64,000 nucleotides of DNA from positions 62,001-126,000 of the forward strand of contig JACRHL010000006.1 in NCBI GenBank assembly GCA_016212085.1, read 5' to 3'. The notes below the pieces were generated by a model. The model was not told the origin of the DNA. It ran no database searches and saw only the letters and a list, made by a program, of their open reading frames with translations. The position numbers were made by a program, and so were the translations under genes. This stretch comes from Nitrospirota bacterium (GTDB lineage: Bacteria; Nitrospirota; JACRHL01). Of the stretch, positions 4,894-57,140 are shown piece after piece (position 1 is the stretch's first letter; each line of letters opens with the position of its first letter).

Positions 4894-5154
4894 GTGATCA
4901 ATACAAGGCGCCGGACGGCGCACTCCATCGATCGGCCGGGCGTGCGCGCCGCGGCGGCTGCGGGATTGGCCCTGGCGCTGCTGCTGGGGGCCTGCGGCGG
5001 CGGTGGCGGCGGCACGGGCGACACCGTTCCGGCGCCCGCCGGCGGCCCCAGCACCCTGAACCCGAGCGACACGGTCAGTGGCGGCCCGGCGGGGCCCGGC
5101 GGCACATCCAGCGCCGGCCACGATGCGGTGGTGACGGACGGGACGCTCTACTGA
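4894..5154 (+). CDS. Small lipoprotein of TSP3 module 1
   Basis: About 86 residues. A basic N-terminus and a hydrophobic stretch end in the lipobox LLGAC, then a poly-Gly linker and a short Pro/Gly/Ser-rich tail ending in LY. It has no known family. The paralogue at 11218-11499 shares the pattern GGPSxLxPxDTVSGG...GHDxxVV...LY, so the tail is under selection. The GTG at 4894 is preferred because GGAGG lies 8-9 nt upstream; TTG 4891 and GTG 4885 are alternatives. The giant TSP3 gene starts 14-35 bp downstream and is very likely co-transcribed, suggesting this lipoprotein helps anchor or export it (inference). Confidence 0.75.
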
Positions 5155-50336: not shown

Positions 50337-51743
50337 ATGCCGCACGATCCGCACAGCCGCTTCCGCGCGCCGGTGGTGGTGGACCGGCGGCTCATCGCCA
50401 AGTACGACAAGGCCGGGCCGCGCTACACCAGCTACCCCACCGCCCCGCACTTTTCCGAAAGATTCGACGCCGCCGCCTACCGGGCGGAGATCGCGCGCAG
50501 CAACCGCGAGGAGTCCGGGCGGCCCCTGTCGCTCTATTTCCACCTGCCGTTCTGCGACACCCTGTGCTACTACTGCGGCTGCAACGTGGTGGTGACGCAG
50601 AAGCGCGAGAAGGTGATCCCCTACCTGGCGCAGATCAAGCACGAGATCGCCGCGGTCGCCGCCATGATCGCGCCGGGGCGCAAGGTGACGCAGCTGCACT
50701 GGGGCGGCGGCACCCCCACCTATCTGGCGCCGGACCAGATCCGCGACCTGATGGCCTTCGTGCACGCCCACTTCGATTTTGCCGACGACGTGGAGGCGGG
50801 CGTCGAGCTGGATCCGCGCGAGTGCGACCGGGAGCGCCTGGTGGCCCTGCGCGAGTCGGGCTTCAACCGCGCCTCCATGGGCATCCAGGACTTCGACAGC
50901 GAGATCCAGGTGCTCGTCAACCGCGTGCAGCCCGTCGACATGACGCGCCGGGTGTTCGACACCTGCCGCGAGCTGGGCTTCCACAGCGTGAACGTGGACC
51001 TCATCTACGGCCTGCCGCTGCAAACCGTCGCCCGCTTCACCCCCACGGTGGACGAGGTGATCGACATGGCGCCGGACCGCATCGCCACCTTCAACTACGC
51101 CCATGTGCCGTGGCTCAAGAAGCACCAGGTCCTGATCCCGGAGGACCTGCTGCCCACCCCCGCGCAAAAGCTCGACATCTTCGAGATGGTCTCGAACCGC
51201 TTCGCCGACGCGGGCTACGTGTTCATCGGCATGGACCACTTCGCCAAGCCCGATGACGAGATCGCCCGCGCCCAGCGCGAGGGCACCCTGTACCGCAACT
51301 TCCAGGGCTACACCACCCACGCCGGGTGCGACCTGTACGCCTTCGGCATCACCGCCATCGGCCAGTTGCGGCGCAGCTACACCCAGAACGTCAAGAAACT
51401 GTCCGACTACTACGCCGCCCTGGACAACGGCGAACTGCCCGTGGAGCGCGGCATCCTGCTCACGGACGAAGACCTGTTACGGCGCGAGGTCATCACCCGC
51501 CTGATGTGCGACTTCGCCCTGGACCCGGCCATGTTCGAGACCCGATACGGCATCGACTTCGACACCCACTTCGCCCATGCCCTGGCCGAGTTCGACGGCT
51601 TCGCGGCGGACGGCCTGGTCACGAAAGACGGGCGCAAGTTCACGGTGACGCCCGCGGGGCGGCTGTTGATACGCAACATGGCGATGCCCTTCGACGCGTA
51701 CCTGGGCACCAAGCCCAATCAAAGGTTCAGCCGCACGGTCTGA
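50337..51743 (+). CDS. hemN: Oxygen-independent coproporphyrinogen III dehydrogenase
   Basis: 468 residues. The radical SAM motif CxxxCxxC is at C73, C77 and C80 (CDTLCYYCGC; the extra Cys two residues on is the HemN hallmark). LHWGGGTPTYL and the SMGIQDFD segment follow. The N-terminal RYTSYPTAPHF trip-wire and full C-terminal domain mark a true HemN rather than HemW. It decarboxylates coproporphyrinogen III to protoporphyrinogen IX without O2, implying anaerobic or microaerobic growth. ATG 50337 directly follows the hemE stop. Confidence 0.95.
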   Translation: MPHDPHSRFRAPVVVDRRLIAKYDKAGPRYTSYPTAPHFSERFDAAAYRAEIARSNREESGRPLSLYFHLPFCDTLCYYCGCNVVVTQKREKVIPYLAQIKHEIAAVAAMIAPGRKVTQLHWGGGTPTYLAPDQIRDLMAFVHAHFDFADDVEAGVELDPRECDRERLVALRESGFNRASMGIQDFDSEIQVLVNRVQPVDMTRRVFDTCRELGFHSVNVDLIYGLPLQTVARFTPTVDEVIDMAPDRIATFNYAHVPWLKKHQVLIPEDLLPTPAQKLDIFEMVSNRFADAGYVFIGMDHFAKPDDEIARAQREGTLYRNFQGYTTHAGCDLYAFGITAIGQLRRSYTQNVKKLSDYYAALDNGELPVERGILLTDEDLLRREVITRLMCDFALDPAMFETRYGIDFDTHFAHALAEFDGFAADGLVTKDGRKFTVTPAGRLLIRNMAMPFDAYLGTKPNQRFSRTV

Positions 51744-51961
51744 CACCGGCCACGGCTTTTCCGCCGGGCTCTTCGTTGTCGCTTCGCAAACGATCCTCGA
51801 TGTAGCGCTGCTACACCTGCGGTCGTTTGCTCCCTCCGCCTTGATCCGACGAAAAATCCGAGGCCTCCGTGGGTGGGGAAGGGTGTTCCGCCACGCTTTC
51901 CTCACCAGCGGCCGCGTCGGCCTTGCAATATCGGCGTGTCACACGCCACACGACCCATTAT
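51744..51961. other. Gene-free stretch after hemN
   Basis: No gene or strong signal supported; GC is close to that of the flanking genes. A repeat family 3 unit begins at about 51962. Confidence 0.3.
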
Positions 51962-52068
51962 CGTAGGTTGGGCAGAATGCAATGAAGCCCAACACGCCCA
52001 CGGCCTGTGCTACGCTGCGGGCCTGGCGGATGTTGGGCTTCGCGGTGCTCTGCCCAACGGGCTGCCAT
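51962..52068. repeat. Repeat family 3, complete unit next to the reverse transcriptase locus
   Basis: GTAGGTTGGGCAGAATGC...GAAGCCCAACACGCC at the left and ATGTTGGGCTTCGCGGTGCTCTGCCCAAC at the right form an imperfect inverted repeat. It marks the boundary where GC falls sharply into the reverse transcriptase locus. Confidence 0.7.
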
Positions 52069-52096: not shown

Positions 52097-52125
52097 TTTC
52101 GAAAAGCCGGCATTTTTGCTATATT
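52097..52125 (+). promoter_or_regulatory. Possible promoter of the reverse-transcriptase ncRNA
   Basis: TATATT at 52120-52125 is a good -10. The -35 at 52097-52102 (TTTCGA) is weak. The predicted start near 52132 would give a leader of about 290 nt before the RT start codon. Confidence 0.35.
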
Positions 52126-52131
52126 GGGTTT

Positions 52132-52424
52132 GCCCTATTCGATTTGGGATAGGGGTCGCTAACAACGTGTCAAGGCACATCTGCCACCAAATTGGTGCGG
52201 CATGGACCTTGGGCACACACCTGGCGAGCAAGCTTAGATAAGCGAGCGCAACTAGCGTGAAGGCGATGTACATATCATTGTACTCCATCGAAGACTGAGG
52301 CTGGCGGGCTGAAAACAGCCGAAGGCGTAGGCATTTTTCCGCGCCGGTATGCGCCGGGCAGGGGCAACAGATTGCCAGCATCTAACCTGCCCGGCATTGC
52401 CGGCTACGCGCCCCAAGGCAGTCA
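52132..52424 (+). ncRNA. Candidate structured ncRNA template of a DRT2-like system
   Basis: About 290 nt directly upstream of the reverse transcriptase with dense secondary structure. Hairpins are CACCAA/TTGGTG (52185-52197), GGCTG-AAAA-CAGCC (52307-52320), a 10-bp stem GCCGGGCAGG (52353-52362) with CCTGCCCGGC (52386-52395), and nested in its loop GGCAA-CAGA-TTGCC (52363-52376). GCGTAG (52325-52330) can also pair with CTACGC (52404-52409). No plus-strand frame is long, while one minus-strand frame is open throughout (52010-52381). DRT2 loci have an ncRNA of about 280 nt at this position that the RT copies repeatedly. Boundaries and function are inferred. Confidence 0.5.
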
Positions 52425-53744
52425 ATGACCAAACCCGACAAGACTTGGTTTAGAGTCCGGCGCTACCTCCATTTTGATGAACCGGTTCGAAGGGAAGTGG
52501 TCGAGGCACTCGTTCAGTCTCCAGAAAGAGTTCGGAAACACTCATTTCTTCCGTTTATCGCATATAACATAGAGACAAGGACATCCAAAATAAACAAGAA
52601 GACTGGCGAAAGGAAAAAAATCCGCCCAATTCGGTATGCAAGCCACATTGATTCACACGTTTATGCCTACTATTCTAAACGCCTAGCTGAAACGTATGAA
52701 TCCATAATACGCGACACACCTCTAAACAAGGTTGTGCTAGCATTTCGACCGCTCGGAAAAACAAATATTAACTTTGCACACGAAGCGTTTCTCGATATCC
52801 ATGAGCGCGGTTCATGTTGTGCAATCGCAATGGATGTTTCCGGTTTTTTCGATAATCTAGATCACGCAATTTTGAAAAATCGCTGGGCCACGATGCTGGG
52901 GAAATCTCGCCTTCCAGATGACCACTACGCAGTATTTAAGTCCCTAACGAAGTATGCATATATCGAAAAAAGCGCCATTTTAACTGAATTAGGGATTTCA
53001 CCACACAATCCGCGAAAAAACGGAAGGAAACGCCTGTGTTCTCCTGATGTTTTTCGAAGAAAGATACGAGATGCGGGGCTTATACAAGTACATCGTGTAA
53101 ATAAGGGTATTCCGCAGGGATCGCCAATAAGCGCTATTCTTTCAAATATCTACATGACCGTTTTCGATGGGTCTTGTTGCGACCTGGCAACTCGCCTAGG
53201 TGGAAGCTACCGAAGATACTGCGACGACATACTGTTCATCTGTGGTAACGAACACAAGGACGTCGCTGTAGATGATATTCAGCGATTCATCCAGGAGCAC
53301 AAGCTCGAAATAAACAAAGAAAAAACGAATGTCTCCGAGTTCACGAACTGTGGGACCGACGCCCCCCCGTTTTCAGTGGCAGGCGTTGACAAACCCCTGC
53401 AATATCTTGGGTTCATGTTTGATGGCCAAAGACGAACAATTCGGTCATCATCGCTTGCGAAATTTGCCCGCAAAATGAAAAAGGCAGTTCGCGCGGCCAA
53501 AAGAGCACAACACAAAGCTAACAATATCCGGGCAAAAAACGGACTCGCAGATACGCTACTGTTTAAGAGAAAGCTTTATCGAAGATACTCTTACATCGGG
53601 AAGCAAGGCTTCGTCCCATATGGCATTCGATCAGCCGAAACGATGGACTCAACCGCAATACGAAAACAAATAAAACCTTTGTGGAAAAGGCTACGAAATG
53701 AAATAGACGGAAATTCTGTCGACACGGATTTTGAGAACAAGTAA
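52425..53744 (+). CDS. Reverse transcriptase, probable anti-phage DRT2 (UG2) type
   Basis: 439 residues. Palm motifs are MDVSGFFDNLDH (catalytic D137), IPQGSPISAILSNIYM (229 onward) and RYCDDILF (YCDD at 265-268), followed by LQYLGFMFDG (RT motif 7 region) and a basic C-terminal region (KFARKMKKAVRAAKRAQHKAN). There is no integrase, maturase X/HNH or retrotransposon domain, so this is not a group II intron RT. The YCDD variant, solitary RT and structured upstream RNA fit DRT2 defence systems. AAGG precedes the ATG by about 7 nt. GC is near 43%, far from neighbours, indicating horizontal transfer. Other UG/DRT classes or an unusual retron remain possible. Confidence 0.82.
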   Translation: MTKPDKTWFRVRRYLHFDEPVRREVVEALVQSPERVRKHSFLPFIAYNIETRTSKINKKTGERKKIRPIRYASHIDSHVYAYYSKRLAETYESIIRDTPLNKVVLAFRPLGKTNINFAHEAFLDIHERGSCCAIAMDVSGFFDNLDHAILKNRWATMLGKSRLPDDHYAVFKSLTKYAYIEKSAILTELGISPHNPRKNGRKRLCSPDVFRRKIRDAGLIQVHRVNKGIPQGSPISAILSNIYMTVFDGSCCDLATRLGGSYRRYCDDILFICGNEHKDVAVDDIQRFIQEHKLEINKEKTNVSEFTNCGTDAPPFSVAGVDKPLQYLGFMFDGQRRTIRSSSLAKFARKMKKAVRAAKRAQHKANNIRAKNGLADTLLFKRKLYRRYSYIGKQGFVPYGIRSAETMDSTAIRKQIKPLWKRLRNEIDGNSVDTDFENK

Positions 53745-53761: not shown

Positions 53762-54187
53762 TTACGCCGCCGGCTCCATGGCCAGCACCACGCGCTGGCC
53801 GAGGGCGGCGGCGGCCTGTTCCAACTGGGTGAAGCGGGAGGCGTGGTTCAGGTCCAGGAGGCGGTCCACCTGGGGCATGTGCCAGTGCAGCCGCCGCGCC
53901 AGTTCCGCCTTGGACACCCCTTGCCGGCGCATGGCGGCGTAGATGCCCAGCTTGGCGCACGGGATGGCGCCGGGAGACACCAGGGCGCGGCCCGCCCCGG
54001 CGCCGGGGCGGGGCAGGTCGCGGCGGTCGTCCACATACATGGACAGGGCCGTTTCCAGGGCGTCCCTGGCGGCCAGCAGGGCCTCCTCGTGGGTGTCGCC
54101 CTGGGTGATGGCCTCGGGCACGTCGGCGAAGGTCACCACAAAACCGCCCTCGTCGGCGGGGGTGAGGGTGGCTGGGTATTCAAACAT
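53762..54187 (-). CDS. HicB-like antitoxin with HTH domain (orphan)
   Basis: 141 residues. The N-terminal HicB-type partial RNase H fold (YPATLTPADEGGFVVTFADVPEAITQGDTHEEALLAA) is followed by a linker and a C-terminal helix-turn-helix (GVSKAELARRLHWHMPQVDRLLDLNH). HicB antitoxins neutralise the mRNA-cleaving toxin HicA and repress their operon, but no HicA-like frame is adjacent. It may be a stand-alone regulator or antitoxin remnant. ATG 54187 has GAGG 7 nt upstream. It is convergent with the RT gene (17 bp gap) and next to a MITE-like repeat. Confidence 0.85.
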   Translation of the reverse strand: MFEYPATLTPADEGGFVVTFADVPEAITQGDTHEEALLAARDALETALSMYVDDRRDLPRPGAGAGRALVSPGAIPCAKLGIYAAMRRQGVSKAELARRLHWHMPQVDRLLDLNHASRFTQLEQAAAALGQRVVLAMEPAA

Positions 54188-55074: not shown

Positions 55075-55728
55075 CTACAGCGCCTGAATCCGCGCGATAT
55101 CCCGCGAATCCCCCAGGATCACCAGCACGTCGTCCTCGCGGATGATGCGGTCGGCGGGGGGGACCAGGACCATGTGTTCCGGGTTCGCCTCGCGCACGGC
55201 GATCACGTGGGCGCGGTAGATGGCGCGCAGGTCGGCGTCTCTCAGGCTCTTGCCGATCAGCTTCTTGGGCGGGGCGATCTGCACCAGCTCGAAGCCTTCC
55301 GCCAGGGGCACGAAGTCCAGCAGGTTGGGGGCGGAGAGGGAGCGGGCCACGCGCCGGGCCGTGTCGCGCTCCGGGTGGATGATGTCCGTCGCCCCCACCT
55401 TGCGCAAAATCTTGGCGTGATCGTCGTCCAGCGCCTTGGCCAGGATGCGCTTGACCCCCAGTTCGTGCAGGTACAGGCAGATCAGCACGCTGGTGCTGAT
55501 GGTGGTGCCGGTGGAAACCACCACCCCGTCCATGCGCTCCAGCCCCAGGGCCGCCAGGGCGTGGCGGTCGGTGGCGTCGACCATCAGCGACTCGGTGCTG
55601 TAGGCGCTGATGGCCTGCACCGTGTCGTCGTGCGAGTCCATGGCCACCACCTCGTGGCCTTGCTCGAAGAGGCTCTTCGCCACATAAAACCCGAACTTGC
55701 CCAGCCCGATCACCGCGAACCGCTTCAC
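55075..55728 (-). CDS. ktrA: Potassium channel regulatory subunit KtrA (RCK domain)
   Basis: 217 residues. An N-terminal TrkA-N Rossmann domain starts FAVIGLGKFGFYVAKSL with the acidic residue at the end of strand 2 (VVAMDSH). A TrkA-C domain follows (GFELVQIAPPKKLIGKSLRDADL...VLVPPADRIIREDDVLVILG). The cytosolic ring senses ATP/ADP or NAD(H) and gates the KtrB ion channel. GTG 55728 has GGAGG 7 nt upstream. It follows ktrB by 11 bp in the same operon. The single-repeat size distinguishes it from the double-length TrkA of many proteobacteria. Confidence 0.93.
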   Translation of the reverse strand: MKRFAVIGLGKFGFYVAKSLFEQGHEVVAMDSHDDTVQAISAYSTESLMVDATDRHALAALGLERMDGVVVSTGTTISTSVLICLYLHELGVKRILAKALDDDHAKILRKVGATDIIHPERDTARRVARSLSAPNLLDFVPLAEGFELVQIAPPKKLIGKSLRDADLRAIYRAHVIAVREANPEHMVLVPPADRIIREDDVLVILGDSRDIARIQAL

Positions 55729-55739
55729 GCGACGCCCTC

Positions 55740-57140
55740 CTAACCGATCATGATGTTTTCCTTGGCGTGGGCCGTGGTGTCCACGGTGTCGCCGCCGGCG
55801 ATGATATAGGCGAAGCTCAGCACGCCGATGCGCCCCACCAGCATGAGCAGGATCACCCACCCCTTGCCCCAGTCCGAAAGGGTGGCCGTGGTCCCCACCG
55901 AATAGCCCACCGTGGCGAACGCCGACACGGACTCGAACAGATACCCCAGAAAGTGCTGCCCAATACCCGTGCCCGTGGTGCCCGACAGGGCATGCTCCGC
56001 CAGGACCAGGAACAGCACCACCGATATCAGCCCCACCGCCATCAGGGTGAGCGACAGGCTGCGGCTTACCGTCTCCTGGGGGATGGTGCGCTTGAACATC
56101 TCCACGTGGCGGAGCCCGTGGACGCGCGCCCAGATGAACGCCACGATGAGCGCCAGGGTGGTGGTCTTCACCCCGCCCCCGCACGAGCCCGGCGAGGCGC
56201 CGAAGAACATCAGGCCGATCATCATGGCCAGGGTGGCCTCGTTGAGCATGGCGATGTCCACGCTGTTGAAGCCGGCGGTGCGCGAGTTGACCGCCTGGAA
56301 CAGGGCGATCAGGAACGATTCGCCCGGTGCCACGCCGTGGAGCGTGTGGGCGTGCTCCAGCAGCCAATAGATGACCGTGCCGCCCGCGGTGAGGATGGCG
56401 CTGGTCACCAGCACCACCTTGGTCTGCACCGTCAGCCGCGCGCGCTGGCGCCGCAGGCGCGCCCTGGCATTGTCGGCCAGATCCTGGATCACCGGAAAGC
56501 CGATGCCGCCCAGCACGATCAGGGCGCACAGGGTCAGCACCACCGAGGTGTCGGCCCGGAAGTGCATCATGTTGTCGGAATAGAGGGAGAAGCCGGCGTT
56601 GCAGAACGCCGACACGGCATGGAACACCGCCAGGAACAGCGCCCGGCCGTAGGGGTTGTCGGCCCGCCACTCGCCATAGAGCAGCGCGGCGCCCGCCGCC
56701 TCGACCACCAGGGTGAAGACCACCACCGTGCGCACCACGCCGAGGATGTCGGCCCGTGGCGTGTGGGCGAACACCTCCTGCATGGCCAGCCGCTGCTTGA
56801 ACAGGACGTTGCGGCCGATGGCCTGGAACAGCATGACCGCCACGGTCATCACCCCCATGCCGCCGATCTGGATGAGCCCCAGGATCACCCACTGGCCGAA
56901 CAGGGTGAAGCGCGTGCCCGTGTCGACAACAGTCAGGCCGGTGACGCACGCCGCCGAGGTGGCGGTGAACACGGCGTCGATGAGGGGGATGCCACCCGCA
57001 TGGGTGGCCTGGGGCAGCATCAGCAGCCCGGAGCCCAGGGTGATCAGCGTCACGAAGCCCAGCGCCACCAGGGTGGCGGGGTGCAGGCGCAGCAGCCTGC
57101 CGAATCGTCCGCGGAAATGGTTCGGGGCGAACCGTTGCAT
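55740..57140 (-). CDS. ktrB: Potassium/sodium transporter membrane subunit KtrB/TrkH family
   Basis: 466 residues with about 8-10 membrane spans in four pore repeats. Selectivity-filter-like segments include FTATSAACVTGLTVVDTG, NSRTAGFNSVDI and ESVSAFATVGYSVGTT. The loop glycines match KtrB rather than longer TrkH proteins. It works with the downstream-encoded KtrA for Na+-dependent K+ uptake, important for osmoadaptation. It begins at ATG 57140 (MQRFAPNHFRGRFGRLLRL, a basic cytosolic start). Confidence 0.93.
   Translation of the reverse strand: MQRFAPNHFRGRFGRLLRLHPATLVALGFVTLITLGSGLLMLPQATHAGGIPLIDAVFTATSAACVTGLTVVDTGTRFTLFGQWVILGLIQIGGMGVMTVAVMLFQAIGRNVLFKQRLAMQEVFAHTPRADILGVVRTVVVFTLVVEAAGAALLYGEWRADNPYGRALFLAVFHAVSAFCNAGFSLYSDNMMHFRADTSVVLTLCALIVLGGIGFPVIQDLADNARARLRRQRARLTVQTKVVLVTSAILTAGGTVIYWLLEHAHTLHGVAPGESFLIALFQAVNSRTAGFNSVDIAMLNEATLAMMIGLMFFGASPGSCGGGVKTTTLALIVAFIWARVHGLRHVEMFKRTIPQETVSRSLSLTLMAVGLISVVLFLVLAEHALSGTTGTGIGQHFLGYLFESVSAFATVGYSVGTTATLSDWGKGWVILLMLVGRIGVLSFAYIIAGGDTVDTTAHAKENIMIG

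Follow-up and report, generated by a model that had tools for sequence, protein, structure and literature searches.

The window, i.e., the whole 64-kb stretch of DNA that was analyzed, very probably contains a horizontally acquired DRT2 anti-phage system which acts by RNA-templated gene synthesis. The locus consists of a DRT2 (UG2) reverse transcriptase gene and, upstream of it, a predicted ncRNA whose template region would encode a stop-free neo gene on the opposite strand. The initial annotation, which had proposed a DRT2-type reverse transcriptase with its ncRNA, was right, and the system is already known in kind. What makes the locus valuable is that a divergent, transferred DRT2 has a complete neo layout, with an unusual arrangement of the translation start, in a GC-rich lineage that is otherwise nearly free of DRT2.

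Architecture of the predicted upstream ncRNA

The ncRNA of the Klebsiella system is composed of a 5′ handle, an ACA-flanked template, and a 3′ domain with a pseudoknot and a tower hairpin, and the toxic neo gene is antisense to it (PMC12039810, PMC11100668). The DNA upstream of the reverse transcriptase was compared among DRT2 loci, of which 80 came from genomes of bacteria and archaea and further ones from viral contigs, plasmids, and E. coli; the E. coli collection gave just two loci with short DNA similarity. The ncRNA of the window was predicted at 52132–52408 on the plus strand, with its handle and 3′ domain aligned to about 55 DRT2 loci and its ends inferred from homologues. The comparison supports a DRT2 ncRNA architecture for this predicted RNA, in which each of the diagnostic parts that were alignable to these related loci was present. 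A structured region was present where the initial annotation had placed it, and the fold of the predicted ncRNA was 4 SD more stable than those of shuffled sequences (z −3.99). The upstream region had been described as A/T-biased, which was incorrect: its GC content was 57%, merely lower than that of the surroundings.

Transcription of the ncRNA was predicted to start near 52132. The possible promoter of its own that the initial annotation had mentioned was an extended −10 element (TGC TATATT, TGCTATATT) at 52117–52125 on the plus strand. It stood as far from the 5′ handle as its counterparts in homologues do, had no clear −35 partner, and was not flagged by a simple sigma-70 scan. The 5′ handle, a CCCTAT...ATAGGG hairpin at 52133–52154, matched a hairpin located directly 5′ of the first jump triplet (ACA-1) in homologues. 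In the 3′ domain, the strand GCTGGC (52300–52305) was complementary to GCCAGC (52374–52379), which lies in the loop of the tower hairpin (52353–52395), and the tower had a perfect 10-bp stem (52353–52362 with 52386–52395). A short buttress-like hairpin, GGCTG-AAAA-CAGCC, was located between the GCTGGC strand and the tower at 52307–52320. The order and spacing of the handle, tower, and pseudoknot were in agreement with those of the homologues, all these elements being on the plus strand.

In 40 homologues, with the window excluded, the pseudoknot was paired in 94% of cells, and its covariation score was higher than that of all 500 shuffles (0/500 matched it) and of all slid versions. The homologues carried pairs such as GCGGC/GCCGC and GTGGC/GCCAC, and GCUGGC/GCCAGC of the window was a further compensated variant. 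The lack of covarying structure that the initial annotation had named as evidence against its reading was not observed. In the covariance model search that it had suggested, a homologue-only model with default filters did not find the locus in the whole window, while with the filters off the tower was the top-ranked hit of 15 kb, with 10.2 bits and E 0.15. RNAalifold retained just 9 pairs in this model, as hairpin lengths vary among homologues, and for this reason the analysis relied on filters-off scoring and the comparison of landmarks. An Rfam search at the locus gave no match.

Template region and predicted neo gene

The predicted template (52162–52293, plus strand) was 132 nt long, corresponding to one neo repeat unit of 44 codons, and was delimited by ACA-1 and the ACA-2 position. 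ACA-1 (52162–52164) was part of a minus-strand TTGACA-N3-TGT motif at 52162–52173, the sole match in the whole window. The ACA-2 position (52294–52296), here ACT, was placed by the 17-bp promoter spacing and the pseudoknot strand that follows it. The two triplets thus match at two of three bases, and a one-base mismatch was also present in the homologues L005, L016, L018, and L026. On the minus strand, the template carried a −35 element TTGACA (52168–52173, 6/6 match) near one end and a −10 element TACAAT (52277–52282, 5/6 match) near the other. When the 132-nt templates were joined head to tail, a TTGACA-17-TACAAT promoter with exact spacing was rebuilt at the junction on the antisense strand, and a stop-free frame of 44 codons ran across the junctions (SMEYNDMYIAFTLVALAYLSLLARCVPKVHAAPIWWQMCLDTLS). 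Stops occurred in every other frame of the repeat, i.e., in two antisense and three sense frames. These features, which add to the initial interpretation, support a stop-free gene for which the coding strand is not that of the ncRNA but the opposite one.

Dinucleotide shuffling of the 450 nt upstream gave the full junction in 0/20,000 sequences, and in 1/20,000 when one mismatch was allowed in the −35/TGT motif, the frame being open. The open frame alone was weak evidence, as 32% of the shuffled interiors were open; the hydropathy of Neo was mildly high and was reached by 8% of shuffles. The neo frame of the window shared the pattern xMxYN...LDxLL/S with homologues. Among the comparison loci, L006 being left out, all but L061 had an open repeat of 99–153 nt, nearly all with the same pattern. 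The comparison script required a length that was a multiple of three; a ranking in which any length was allowed gave multiples of three for nearly all comparison loci.

The translation start was different from that of the homologues. Within the repeat, GGAG at 52283–52286 (minus strand) was the sole Shine–Dalgarno-like site to have an in-frame start. It was at an offset of −4 from the −10 element, i.e., upstream of it, while in homologues with a detectable GGAG-type site this site was always located after the −10, at +12 to +27. Just an in-frame ATG, a candidate Neo start at 52271–52273 (minus strand), came after the −10 in the window, 9 nt after GGAG. Because the Shine–Dalgarno-like site precedes the −10, Neo may be translated just from the second repeat on, or by another route, if the promoter is as predicted. 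It is possible, although rather unlikely, that the start is placed precisely to work from the second repeat on, with ribosomes loading after the transcript has crossed the next junction. In that case, the promoter and the translation start would both depend on concatemerization, giving a built-in test for at least two repeats. The altered start and the imperfect jump triplets are natural variants with which the rules of template jumping and neo expression can be tested.

By analogy with the characterized DRT2 (PMC12039810, PMC11100668), we infer that the reverse transcriptase would bind the upstream ncRNA and that phage infection would trigger repeated copying of the template (52162–52293), with jumps by which it returns from ACA-1 to the ACA-2 position. 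The resulting tandem 132-bp repeats would become double-stranded via second-strand synthesis. Each junction would then supply the antisense promoter and each repeat a portion of an endless 44-codon frame, both of which can be read in the DNA of the locus, and the hydrophobic, repetitive Neo product would arrest the growth of the infected cell, resulting in abortive infection.

Two other readings of the template were considered. It is improbable that the reverse transcriptase and ncRNA still make repetitive cDNA while neo expression has decayed or been replaced, as in a decaying foreign element or one with another effector. The two-of-three match of the jump triplets, the Shine–Dalgarno-like site preceding the −10, and a reverse transcriptase outside the 58-row clade described below would fit this reading, and annotating Neo is reported to be more difficult when DRT2 clades are divergent (PMC11100668). 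However, the promoter, its 17-bp spacing, the multiple-of-three length, and the open frame are all intact, as are the length and the active site of the reverse transcriptase, and several homologues also have one triplet mismatch. Far less probable is a repeat unit of 153 nt (52162–52314), in which the perfect ACA at 52315–52317 would serve as ACA-2. This unit matches at 3/3 triplet bases, is a multiple of three, keeps the frame open, and has GGAG and ATG downstream of the −10 position with a GGAG–ATG spacing like that of homologues. It was nevertheless rejected, as CAGCCT instead of a −10 is found at 17 bp, its ACA belongs to a hairpin, being part of the 3′ arm, and ACA-2 would come after the pseudoknot strand, whereas in homologues this strand directly follows ACA-2. 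The 132-nt unit with an expressed neo gene is the preferred reading, against which stand the two-of-three triplet match, the place of the Shine–Dalgarno-like site, and the miss of the covariance model with default filters.

Other DRT2 loci showed variant neo layouts. In L061, from a Thiotrichales MAG (JAFGXP010000030.1, ncRNA upstream of the reverse transcriptase at 5001), a neo repeat of 108 nt was predicted under the same junction rule, with an in-frame TAA directly before the neo start codon (GGAGGCAACTAAATG), possibly due to an assembly error. Instead of one never-ending ORF, this locus would have a short one in each repeat, about 35 codons long and closed by a stop. In the divergent loci L078, L090, L074 (Acinetobacter), L076, L055, L060, L063, and L006, the jump triplets seemingly change together: GAT/GAT, AAT/AAT, CAA/CAA, TAT/TAT, or AGT/AGT replace TGT/TGT, with the −35/−10 spacing kept and, except in L006, an open repeat with a multiple-of-three length. 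The search for divergent triplets was relaxed, and single cases may be due to chance; the set suggests that the two triplet copies coevolve and that ACA is not fixed. L006, from plasmid pDVUL01 of Nitratidesulfovibrio vulgaris, had perfect TTGACA, TATAAT, and AGT/AGT upstream of drt2, with a repeat unit of 145 nt, which is not a multiple of three.

Identity and origin of the reverse transcriptase

The reverse transcriptase ORF (52425–53744, plus strand) encoded a solitary protein of 439 aa with YCDD at residues 265–268, as had been annotated initially. The protein was full length, and its active site was intact. The profile search that had been recommended assigned it to Drt2 by a wide difference. 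The hit to the NCBIfam model NF041746 (antiviral reverse transcriptase Drt2) spanned profile positions 1–416 of 416 and reached 546 bits (cutoff, 390), and PADLOC gave 4.9e-172 for Drt2 and 5e-26 for the next class. With Pfam, RVT_1 was the only match (79 bits), and no accessory domain was detected. The nearest solved structures were those of DRT2 itself (PDB 9lje, 9c0i, and others), at approximately 1e-128 over the full length and about 45% identity. On these profiles, the ORF is a full-length DRT2 reverse transcriptase. A different class (retron, group II intron, DGR, or Abi-type), which would have in its favor just the generic domain common to all reverse transcriptases, is scarcely credible and was rejected on the profile scores: the matching profiles scored much less than Drt2, and those from NCBIfam did not reach their cutoffs (group II intron model TIGR04416, 88 bits vs 300; best retron model, 51 bits vs 235; the other DRT models, far under their own).

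The DRT2 of Klebsiella pneumoniae (PDB 9c0i, 9lje; PMC12039810, PMC11100668) is likewise a single reverse transcriptase with YCDD and without accessory domains, preceded by an ncRNA of about 280 nt with a 5′ handle, template, pseudoknot, and tower, and its antisense neo gene also has a promoter rebuilt at the junction. Compared with it, the system of the window had a reverse transcriptase of about 45% identity, a repeat of 132 nt instead of 120, ACT as ACA-2, the GCUGGC/GCCAGC pseudoknot, and a Shine–Dalgarno-like site that precedes the −10. Among the homologues found, the DRT2 of Chromatocurvus halotolerans (L011) was the most identical, with 51% reverse transcriptase identity, which was the highest value for any row of the tree. 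It possessed the canonical neo layout of 120 nt and, unlike the window, an ACA-2 identical to ACA-1, a TATAAT −10, and a Shine–Dalgarno site after the −10. In the reverse transcriptase tree, the window was placed outside a well-supported 58-row clade containing the Enterobacteriaceae systems. Since these are the systems in which neo has been characterized, RNA-templated gene synthesis can be predicted over a wider range.

The DRT2 element was most likely acquired from elsewhere, because its host is unrelated and GC-rich. As the initial annotation had stated, the GC content was unlike that of the surroundings: the reverse transcriptase gene had 44.8% GC and 44% GC3, compared with 95% GC3 for the neighboring hemN and 69% GC for the window. 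In addition, of the 396 genomes of the phylum, this was the only one in which DRT2 was found. A relative from the same family has hemN within 0.8 kb of the clpS-like and prfB-like genes, which in the window are located past 57.2 kb; therefore, compared with that relative, most of 51.74–57.2 kb is an insertion. The locus had also been placed beside a repeat boundary. Repeats did adjoin it directly upstream (51741–51880 and 51965–52058), but they were members of two dispersed families with 46 matches in the genome, the second being an inverted repeat, GTTGGGC...GCCCAAC. The orphan antitoxin was a HicB-like ORF at 53762–54187 on the minus strand (Pfam 1.7e-7), with a weak C-terminal helix-turn-helix match and no HicA partner recognized in the roughly 500 nt that precede its start. 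TrkA/TrkH-like potassium uptake genes were located at 55075–57140 on the minus strand, within the stretch that the relative G001 lacks. The TrkH of relatives was just about 39% identical and encoded elsewhere in the genome, and these genes may be foreign too, although their GC content (67%) matches that of the host.
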